Shown: piece after piece, positions 33,215 to 35,015 of the stretch | How positions within the stretch are numbered: the first letter of the stretch is position 1 | How the letters are laid out: each line of letters begins with the position of its first letter | Source: Erythrobacteraceae bacterium | GTDB lineage: Bacteria > Pseudomonadota > Alphaproteobacteria > Sphingomonadales > Sphingomonadaceae | Assembly: GCA_002706445.1 (NCBI GenBank) | Contig: PALE01000037.1 | Span: 1-40,932, forward strand | Direction of reading: 5' to 3' | DNA: 40,932 nucleotides | Notes under the pieces: model-generated | Told to the model about the DNA's origin: nothing | Database searches by the model: none | The model's input: the letters and a program-made list of their open reading frames with translations, nothing else | Program-made: the position numbers and the translations under genes

Positions 33215-33290
33215 AGGGGTGTAGCTCAGCTGGTAGAGCATCGGTCTCCAAAACCGAGGGCCACGGGTTCGAATCCTGTCACCCCTGCCA
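33215..33290 (+). tRNA. tRNA-Trp (CCA anticodon)
   Basis: A 76-base cloverleaf: the acceptor arm AGGGGTG pairs with CACCCCT, followed by a G discriminator and an encoded CCA (33288-33290). D arm with AGCTCAGCTGGTAGAGC, anticodon loop CTCCAAA (33246-33252, anticodon CCA at 33248-33250), and T arm with GGGTTCGAATCC. TTTCCTTTTT follows. tRNA-Trp upstream of secE-nusG is common in bacteria, but here secE is about 3.6 kb away. Confidence 0.97.
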
Positions 33291-33690: not shown

Positions 33691-34392
33691 TCATTCCTCT
33701 GCGCCGAATTCCGCCAGCAGCTCGAGATATTCGCGGTCGACGATCTCCAGCGCTCGGTCGGAGCGGCGCACGATGCCGCGCTCTTCCCAGTCGGACATCA
33801 ACCGGCTGACGTTCTCGCGGGCGATTCCGGCAAAAGCGCCGAGGTCGCTCTGGCTGGGATAGAGCCGTAATCGGCGACCGTCCGGGTCTGCCGGATCGAG
33901 CAGCCGCACCAGCGCACGCGCAAGGCGGGGAGCCATCGAGAAAGTGCGGTCGCTTTCGACCACGAGATTAAGCTGCCGCACGCGGCTCGCAAGCGCGCGC
34001 ATGACGCCCGCCATCGATGCAGGGTTCGCCAAGGCTGCGGCCTGAAACGCGCTTGCAGGAATGACGAGCACGCTGGTCGGCTCAGTCGCGCTGACGGTCG
34101 CGGTGCGCGGTTGCTGGTCGAGCATGGCGATCTCGCCCACCACATCGCCTGCGCTGCTGTAGCTGAGGATGATCTCACGGCCCGTCGCGCTGACCATCGA
34201 CACCTTGACCGTGCCCGACAGGATGAAGACCGCGAAATCGCCGTTCTCGTCGCCCTGTTCGATGATGGTCTGACCGCGCTTGAGATCGACTCTCGTCGAG
34301 CGCGCCAGCAGATCTTCCAGCTGTTGCGGCGCGAGCGCGCGCAACAGCGTGCCCGGCTCCAGTCGCGCAATCAATTGCTCGTAATCGTCCAT
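33691..34392 (-). CDS. Crp-type transcriptional regulator
   Basis: 233 residues from ATG 34392 (MDDYEQLIARLEP), with AAGGGGG just upstream. N-terminal cyclic-nucleotide-binding barrel with the phosphate-binding-cassette pattern GEIAMLDQQPRTATV (Glu, Arg and Thr of the cAMP pocket), a dimer helix (SMAGVMRALASRVRQLNLVV), then a winged HTH with SQSDLGAFAGIARENVSRLM. The recognition helix keeps R-E-x-V-x-R as in E. coli CRP, which reads GTGA. There is no Cys in the protein, so it is not an Fe-S FNR. The gene is divergent from an RNA/small-protein unit, with a CRP-like site in between. cAMP binding and the target are inferred. Confidence 0.88.
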   Translation of the reverse strand: MDDYEQLIARLEPGTLLRALAPQQLEDLLARSTRVDLKRGQTIIEQGDENGDFAVFILSGTVKVSMVSATGREIILSYSSAGDVVGEIAMLDQQPRTATVSATEPTSVLVIPASAFQAAALANPASMAGVMRALASRVRQLNLVVESDRTFSMAPRLARALVRLLDPADPDGRRLRLYPSQSDLGAFAGIARENVSRLMSDWEERGIVRRSDRALEIVDREYLELLAEFGAEE

Positions 34393-34470
34393 ATTCCCCC
34401 TTCGCGCCCGACTGCCTGCGACCGGCCAGAATCCTCTACAGCCCACCGCGCGAAAGAAAAATCTTTGCGC

Positions 34471-34486
34471 TGTGATGGGCATCACT
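34471..34486. promoter_or_regulatory. CRP-like operator with class II-spaced promoter
   Basis: TGTGATGGGCATCACT matches TGTGA-N6-TCACA at nine of ten positions; GTGAT-GGGC-ATCAC is a perfect inverted repeat. The centre is 34478.5. CATAAC at 34508-34513 (4 of 6 to TATAAT) lies where the -10 falls if the site is at -41.5, giving a rightward start near 34520. It lies 79 bases upstream of the Crp-like start codon, so autoregulation is also possible. Confidence 0.65.
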
Positions 34487-34519
34487 GCGGGCGAATCGCA
34501 AAGCCGTCATAACCGCCTC

Positions 34520-34736
34520 AACGAAGGGCGACACGCTCGATGAGGAATTGAACGATTGAACAGTTGGCCCGGATTGCCTGGGGCCGGTCCGTACGGGGGC
34601 GGACCGGGGGGGTGCTGCTTCCAGTGTAGCAAGGCAATCCGGGTTTGCCCCCGACCAGTTTTCCGAGGCGACCCGAACGGCGGGTAGGGACCCGTCGTCA
34701 ACTTATCCCCCCGCCAGCAATGGCGGGGGGTCTTTT
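34520..34736 (+). ncRNA. Predicted structured RNA (unrecognised), about 217 nt
   Basis: The 473-bp gap 34393-34865 has no credible gene but strong RNA structure on the plus strand. P1: 34568-34579 pairs with 34632-34643, 12 bp perfect (CCCGGATTGCCT/AGGCAATCCGGG). Inside it, P2 is 34584-34591 with 34600-34607, 8 bp perfect, and P3 is 34613-34618 with 34626-34631 (6 bp, one G-U). Together these form a three-way junction. The P2 loop CGGGGG (34594-34599) is complementary to CCCCCG (34648-34653), a possible pseudoknot. P4: 34677-34685 with 34690-34698. A perfect terminator closes the unit at 34707-34736. The 5' end is set from the CRP-site spacing. It may be a free sRNA or the attenuated leader of the small gene at 34866. 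I could not fit it to 6S, SRP, RNase P, tmRNA or a riboswitch I know. Confidence 0.6.
34707..34736 (+). terminator. Rho-independent terminator of the structured RNA
   Basis: CCCCCCGCC, loop AGCAAT, GGCGGGGGG, then TCTTTT: nine perfect GC-rich pairs and a T tract. No open frame of note precedes it, so it must end an RNA or attenuate the downstream small gene. The G run at 34606-34612 could pair with its C arm as an alternative fold. Confidence 0.85.
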
Positions 34737-34865
34737 CCGGGAAGCCATCATGCGGGGGGAGATGAACGCAAGCCGACCGGATCGCTCAGGAACCGGCTAG
34801 GCGAAGCGTGCGATTACAGCGACGAGCCGAAAGGCGGGTTGCACCACCAAACAGGAGTGACGATT

Positions 34866-35015
34866 ATGAGCCATCACAGCTTCCGCTCTTCCAAGCCCGA
34901 TCAATGGGTCAGCCCGCGCCCCTACAGCGACCCGTCGCTGCGGGCGCTGACCTATGGCCCGGTGCGCTCGATGCACGAGCCCAACTGGTTCGAGCGTCTG
35001 CTCGGCTGGCACTAG
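34866..35015 (+). CDS. Small protein with C-terminal MHEP-x3-ERLL motif (49 residues)
   Basis: ATG with AGGAG about eight bases upstream, TAG at 35013, and a strong terminator 48 bases later. The protein starts MSHHSFRSSKPDQWVSPRPY, continues SDPSLRALT and ends YGPVRSMHEPNWFERLLGWH. It is basic, rich in Ser/Pro/aromatics, and has no TM or signal peptide. The C-terminal half resembles the 48-residue protein at 33537. I do not recognise a named family or function. It lies downstream of the terminated structured RNA, so its expression may depend on read-through or on a promoter between 34737 and 34850 that I cannot identify. Confidence 0.75.
   Translation: MSHHSFRSSKPDQWVSPRPYSDPSLRALTYGPVRSMHEPNWFERLLGWH

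Follow-up and report, generated by a model that had tools for sequence, protein, structure and literature searches.

A conserved, CRP-linked candidate small RNA beside a divergent regulator gene in an Erythrobacteraceae bacterium

The enterobacterial sRNAs Spot 42 and CyaR are under the control of cAMP-CRP. In the stretch of DNA analysed here (40,932 nucleotides from an Erythrobacteraceae bacterium; hereafter, the window), a CRP box likewise lies beside a predicted sRNA promoter, which makes carbon-linked control a natural guess; no sequence relation to Spot 42 or CyaR is claimed, and, unlike in those systems, the regulator gene is itself the divergent neighbour. Among sphingomonads and the marine bacteria related to them, few characterised sRNAs are known. 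The RNAs of the alphaR8/suhB/MmgR family (Rfam RF00519, which includes SuhB of Sphingopyxis granuli and SisA-D of Caulobacter) are short, often multicopy alphaproteobacterial RNAs, and their hairpin, ACUU linker and GC-rich (GGCC-type) terminator are also found in the family of the window's RNA. The latter differs from RF00519 in carrying a conserved GCGACCCG; the CCUCCCU-type anti-Shine-Dalgarno stretch of the linker is absent from the window (CAACUU) and from 13 aligned cores, the window is missing among the RF00519 matches at E<=10, and no gathering-level match (41 bits) was obtained. By the tests made, the window's family is architecturally related to RF00519 and is no member of it. Among sphingomonads the nearest studied case is SuhB of Sphingopyxis granuli, described as a 61-nt sRNA that takes part in catabolite repression by acting, together with Hfq, on a 5' UTR (PMC6563040), and it is cited here as a parallel, with no claim of membership. 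CrfA of Caulobacter crescentus is likewise presented as an alphaproteobacterial sRNA tied to carbon status and differs in that it sponges alphaR8 RNAs; in the main text of that paper (PMC12559287), neither CRP nor Sphingomonad was found as a term.

The divergent unit of the window comprises the following features:

33694..34392, minus strand: P0001, gene for a CRP/FNR-type regulator of 233 aa, divergent from the small RNA; Pfam cNMP_binding and HTH_Crp_2 above cut-off
34471..34486, no strand assigned: CRP-type box TGTGATGGGCATCACT, centre at 34478.5, 9/10 consensus letters
34508..34513, plus strand: -10 hexamer CATAAC, by direct reading; its spacing suits a -41.5 (class II) site with +1 at 34520
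34520..34736, plus strand: predicted small RNA of about 217 nt, from promoter geometry (which sets the predicted 5' end) and terminator
34668..34675, plus strand: conserved 8-mer GCGACCCG, the proposed seed, exact in 25/27 orthologous loci and GCGACCCA in the other 2
34677..34698, plus strand: core hairpin 1, pair probability >0.99 in the window, with covariation
34701..34704, plus strand: ACTT linker, seen by eye to recur among distant homologs and in many members of the core
34705..34736, plus strand: terminator (hairpin 34705-34731, T run 34733-34736), pair probability 1.0 at 34712-34725, covarying helix 2

The regulator has CRP-type proteins among its PDB neighbours, and its recognition helix reads R-E-N-V-S-R, so that the CRP recognition residues pointed out in the initial annotation are kept. 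It scored 78 bits with the NCBIfam CRP equivalog, far under the 266 required, and a search with it among named genomes gave a single match, a distant actinobacterial protein. The near-perfect CRP site that had been placed at -41.5 from CATAAC was also borne out: the box, of the TGTGA-N6-TCACA type with nine of its ten letters, is centred at -41.5, and the spacing of the -10 hexamer is right for a start at 34520, which is the arrangement of a class II CRP unit. This box would be recognised by a regulator of the CRP type, which the divergent gene probably encodes. Every element named in the initial annotation (the box, the -10, the helix arms of 12, 8, 5 and 6 bp and the terminator) is present in the window. 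Downstream of the promoter-like site, no ORF of at least 60 aa was found on the RNA's strand within 34520-34736, and the strong terminator lies at 34705-34736, in agreement with the earlier proposal of a terminated transcript coding no protein; such a combination fits a trans-acting antisense sRNA. The segment 34515-34740 folds more stably than its shuffled versions (0/200 as stable, z -3.45). The U-rich tail and the ACUU linker are compatible with binding by Hfq or another chaperone.

An Rfam scan of the window gave, at the gathering threshold, a tRNA at 33215-33287 and nothing over the small RNA, which upheld the initial view that it matches no known RNA class. The best sub-threshold match over the RNA stretch reached 22.7 bits, versus 49.5 needed. 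Matches to anti-hemB, Hrs1 and NsiR1 were discarded, being under the cut-off and placed over the terminator.

Since a DNA search of 60 genomes with the region 34440-34740 as query found no relatives, regulator synteny was used to find orthologous loci. A search of 114 genus genomes with the regulator (E<=1e-50) yielded 27, the window's own included. The whole unit (CRP-like gene, CRP box, GCGACCCG, hairpin and terminator) was found divergently upstream in 27/27 regulator orthologs, each gap containing a box and, beyond it, GCGACCC[GA] as the core, then the hairpin region and lastly a hairpin resembling a terminator. The box matched eight of the ten letters in two loci, nine in 19 and all ten in six; in 2700 trials with letter-shuffled gaps, a score of 8 was obtained in 94 and of 9 in 10 (at least 8 in 104). 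In six loci the first G of GCGACCCG lies exactly at the box-predicted +1 (41.5 from the centre), so that the RNA would there be 72-77 nt long. These six have no leader ahead of the seed, another 20 loci have one of 18-71 nt, and that of the window measures 148 nt. The part common to the relatives is 34668-34736, which the initial annotation had not singled out. Folding around hairpin 1 is different in two loci (L066 and L071), and the T run is weak in three (L012, L067 and L070).

Covariation was evaluated over the hairpin and the terminator in a plain MAFFT alignment of 13 cores. Paired cells amounted to 90.2%, and both sides had changed in 10 of the 19 pairs; none of 500 shuffles was as high on any measure. 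Slid structures gave 46-55% paired cells versus 90.2% in register, a control slightly biased towards the structure used, since that structure (including the register of hairpin 1) was drawn by eye from one sequence. The covariance check on the same gap in relatives, suggested at the outset, thus came out in favour of the core helices, and together with the unit's retention in all the ortholog loci this supports the regulated, CRP-activated small RNA that had been proposed. A model built from the 13 cores (R1) recovered 13/13 of the other Crp-linked loci shown, at E<=4.6e-6; its structure has hairpin 1 out of register, and the test omitted a 14th locus, L062, which prints like L061.

Relatives of the RNA were also found away from the regulator. 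A second model (R2), in whose alignment several hairpin arms were misplaced, was run on 296 genomes of the order and matched 31 at E<=0.001, each of these 31 being the window's own, of the same genus or of the same family; searches over 40 genomes ran with stricter filters. A GCGACCC-bearing match was present in 24 of these 31 genomes (in eight it was the Crp-linked locus) and lacking in six, one being unread. A permissive run (E<=0.05) matched 26/39 genus genomes, some of them spuriously. Fifty-four model-found loci lie away from the regulator, with exact GCGACCCG in 34, GCGACCC in two and neither in 18. Two of the 34 may not be sRNAs: by eye L116 resembles coding sequence, and L121 is opposite the 5' UTR of the PWHLW gene described below. 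A CRP-type box was located 41.5 nt from the seed in L050 and L057 (one genome, of another genus) and 42.5 nt from it in L084 (also another genus), no relative of the window's regulator being found within these three loci; judged by eye, the other family loci appear to have different promoters. None of the 22 homologous loci scanned reached an Rfam gathering cut-off, and five homologs scored 24.5-31.7 bits with RF00519 (cut-off 41). In a literature search that left subscription papers aside, none of the titles and abstract openings found names this RNA. The small RNA apparently belongs to an unnamed family with several loci and promoters within the bacterial family.

Some further observations were made on these loci. 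In the window's own genome, the model matches on contig C22 were rejected as family members, being tRNA-adjacent terminators, and contig C29 holds one further weak match (E 0.03). A GCAG...CUGC-type hairpin is visible by eye directly before the seed in L047, L049, L081, L082, L085-L089, L105, L107, L108 and L122. At L085:861-934 (+) there is an alphaR8/suhB match of 40.9 of the 41 bits needed; an RNA of the GCGACCCG family is some 0.6 kb away, so that one locus may contain the two kinds together.

Drawing on the conserved unit, its covarying helices, the box spacing and the complementary conserved motifs presented below, we consider that the window probably encodes an antisense sRNA that CRP activates and that acts in trans, its seed pairing with the 5' UTRs of its targets; the family to which it belongs is not in Rfam. 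A CRP-type regulator would bind the -41.5 box and activate a class II promoter at 34520, giving a transcript that would act as a non-coding RNA with a conserved part made up of the GCGACCCG seed, the hairpin, the ACUU linker and the terminator. The seed would pair with CGGGUCGC, or with variants tolerated through G:U pairs, in 5' UTRs beside the ribosome-binding site, and this pairing would most likely block ribosome loading and lower translation of the target. Transcription, the ligand, pairing in the cell and the sign of the regulation are what we infer from these features. A trans-acting sRNA is in itself of an ordinary kind, but this family is conserved and apparently unnamed, its promoter logic is clear, and its proposed targets are specific enough to be tested. 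With a conserved sRNA linked to CRP, a seed that hardly varies and two candidate targets identified by name, regulation by carbon status would become directly testable in this group.

Targets were sought in the 27 genomes with a pattern of CGGGTCGC followed by GGA and ATG. It gave 482 matches versus 225 for the reversed pattern, exceeding this control in 26/27 genomes; the two patterns have unequal base rates. From the part of the matches that was listed, recurring ones and a few others were picked by eye; this gave 20 stretches, and two genes were taken further. The first codes for a protein of 141-145 aa, here called PWHLW, which is membrane-like (hydrophobic by eye), is present in 109/114 genus genomes (loci including L161-L164, L167 and L168) and matched no family of Pfam or NCBIfam. 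Its UTR was analysed in 108 genomes, taking the best match in each and excluding G418 (contig end) and five genomes without a match at 1e-15. CGGGTCGC occurs within 190 nt before the PWHLW WH codons in 57/108 genomes, including the window's, where the copy bearing it is on contig C7. The motif was found in 21/26 genomes with the Crp-linked RNA versus 36/82 without it (Fisher p 0.0014, uncorrected for kinship); some of the latter may lack the RNA through incomplete assembly alone. Among all 108 UTR windows CGGGTCGC ranks third of the 8-mers, the two above it probably coming from the upstream coding region. The exact motif is missing from the PWHLW UTR in five of the 26 RNA-bearing genomes, one of which keeps a G:U variant, and several of the UTRs without it hold variants that could still pair through G:U. 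In many UTRs the motif occupies a hairpin loop near the ribosome-binding site, with GUCGC unpaired in 50/68 best folds; for this gene, activation through opening of the hairpin would be possible instead of repression.

The second gene is ihfA, identified by an NCBIfam equivalog above cut-off. It was analysed in 106 genomes, 8/114 without a match at 1e-30 being excluded; at that threshold it was not found in the window's own, incomplete genome. Exact CGGGTCGC is present upstream of ihfA in 36/106 genomes, 12/25 with and 24/81 without the Crp-linked RNA, a contrast that is not significant (p 0.098), and GGGTCG[CT] is present in 80/106. A small stem can be drawn here, pair 3 of which alternates between C-G and U-A. 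Since ihfA stems of at least 4 bp were no commoner than in shuffles (0.14 vs 0.13) and GUCGC was unpaired in 43/88 best folds, a loop at ihfA is not established. Duplexes between the seed and the UTR were equalled by at most five of 100 shuffles in 20/26 genomes for PWHLW and in 18/25 for ihfA, a statistic with some circularity, since the complement of the seed had served to select these genes. On these sequence grounds, the PWHLW gene and ihfA are the best target candidates.

The complementarity could also arise differently. The RNA might be a real CRP-controlled sRNA with other partners, and CGGGUCGC in both UTRs an independent element, either a protein-binding hairpin or a translation signal, whose match to the seed would be accidental or due to another RNA. 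The motif does persist without a Crp-linked RNA (36/82 for PWHLW, 24/81 for ihfA), and, as such genomes played no part in the choice of genes, the 36 exact motifs inform on conservation of the UTR element and not on the RNA. The PWHLW stems around the motif, moreover, average 5.5 bp versus 2.0 with shuffled flanks in the 66/108 genomes with the element. Against this explanation, the 8-mer most frequent in the PWHLW UTR of RNA-bearing genomes (21/26) is exactly complementary to the one most frequent in the sRNA loci (25/27), and sibling RNAs with the same seed exist, the permissive search for these having covered 39 genus genomes. We regard an independent element as unlikely, if still worth weighing, and retain a seed that acts in trans.

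The window differs from the other loci in its long leader, which contains the following elements:

34520..34667, plus strand: 148-nt leader with the junction of the initial annotation, in this genome only (DNA search of 60 relatives negative)
34568..34579, plus strand: CCCGGATTGCCT, which can pair over 12 bp with 34632-34643 or, by 34570-34579, with the seed region 34666-34675
34584-34591 / 34600-34607, plus strand: first inner helix, 8 bp, complementary arms
34594-34599 / 34648-34653, plus strand: complementary pseudoknot arms CGGGGG / CCCCCG, 6 bp, predicted pairing
34614-34618 / 34626-34630, plus strand: second inner helix, 5 bp including one G-U, complementary arms
34632..34643, plus strand: AGGCAATCCGGG, partner arm of the 12-bp stem, by complementarity

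A perfect 12-bp stem appeared in 0/1000 dinucleotide shuffles of the leader, the mean longest stem being 6.7 bp. In the full transcript the mid-pair probability was 0.001 for the closing stem and the first inner helix and 0.60 for the second inner helix. Forcing the closing stem and both inner helices gave -104.4 versus -107.9 kcal/mol for the free fold, a gap of 3.5. As the stem goes beyond chance and this fold is near the best one, the junction may form; it is the best fold of the isolated 5' part and so could form first during RNA synthesis. When the pseudoknot arms were left free in the forced junction the energy was -98.9 kcal/mol; since the 6-bp duplex by itself contributes -11.5, a fold with the pseudoknot may be competitive. 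In the free fold, 34570-34579 pairs with the seed region and the seed is unpaired at 0.15, the lowest value of the 27 loci, versus 0.47 when the fold is forced into the junction. According to this modelling, a two-state leader is possible, alternating between a junction with a freer seed and a seed-masking fold. The three-way junction with pseudoknot put forward in the initial annotation thus stands as regards its arms, the stem beyond chance and a fold near the best. As the defining feature of the RNA it was set aside, not for reasons of energy, but because it lies wholly in the extra leader of one genome, with no counterpart in the 60 relatives of the DNA search or in the other 26 loci.

The same leader could be read as a lineage-specific switch of 148 nt that responds to some ligand or state and thereby gates either the sRNA or, with less likelihood, a downstream gene. 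The 12-bp stem unmatched in 1000 shuffles, the small energy gap of the junction fold (3.5 kcal/mol) and the change in seed exposure (0.47 versus 0.15) would all suit such a switch. However, masking of the seed was equalled by 20/150 shuffled leaders and is no better than chance, the leader is absent from the relatives examined, six loci being leaderless, and there is no common downstream gene. No known aptamer class was found at the Rfam threshold, nor a conserved leader tied to a common downstream gene, as would mark a riboswitch. A 49-aa small protein is encoded at 34866-35012 (+) of the window (MSHHSF...NWFERLLGWH); it has homologs in 58/149 family genomes, its own included, matched no family of Pfam or NCBIfam, and has nothing credibly similar to it among the other 26 loci (best E 0.33). 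Past the end of the RNA, the longest frames, which are not proven genes, fall into 15 groups, the largest covering 11 loci, and 19/26 are on the opposite strand. The proposal of a ligand-sensing leader of a downstream gene was not supported by these results, the RNA ending in a terminator and its loci sharing no downstream gene, and a sensing leader of any kind appears very unlikely. A minor observation on the leader concerns its start, 34526-34535, which reads GGGCGACACG; within it, GCGACACG at 34528-34535 differs from the seed by one letter and, lying near the predicted +1, is perhaps a relic of a shorter form whose RNA begins with the seed.

That the RNA is a sponge titrating another sRNA instead of mRNAs, as described for the carbon-starvation sponge CrfA of Caulobacter with alphaR8 RNAs (PMC12559287), is highly improbable: the alphaR8-like match near a family member at L085 (40.9 of 41 bits) would fit, but by eye no complementarity is apparent between the seed and the core of alphaR8.

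The preferred reading of a CRP-activated antisense sRNA can be extended. Sibling sRNAs with promoters of their own, CRP-dependent in one branch, might use one seed to read GG-GUCGCR-CC at the ribosome-binding sites of ihfA and of the membrane-like protein gene, the window's 148-nt two-fold leader making its RNA a gated sRNA. We put this forward tentatively and as a doubtful proposition. If true, a single loop code would connect carbon status with the envelope and with nucleoid architecture, and sibling RNAs sharing one seed would form a hub comparable to alphaR8 or Qrr.

Finally, three weak model matches (E 0.03-0.05), at G007:C171:3511-3599, G011:C16:43968-44064 and G014:C114:276-359, are on the strand opposite the 5' UTR of either PWHLW or ihfA. 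Read as its reverse complement, the proposed target resembles the core of the sRNA, and from this likeness the RNA could perhaps have arisen out of antisense transcripts.
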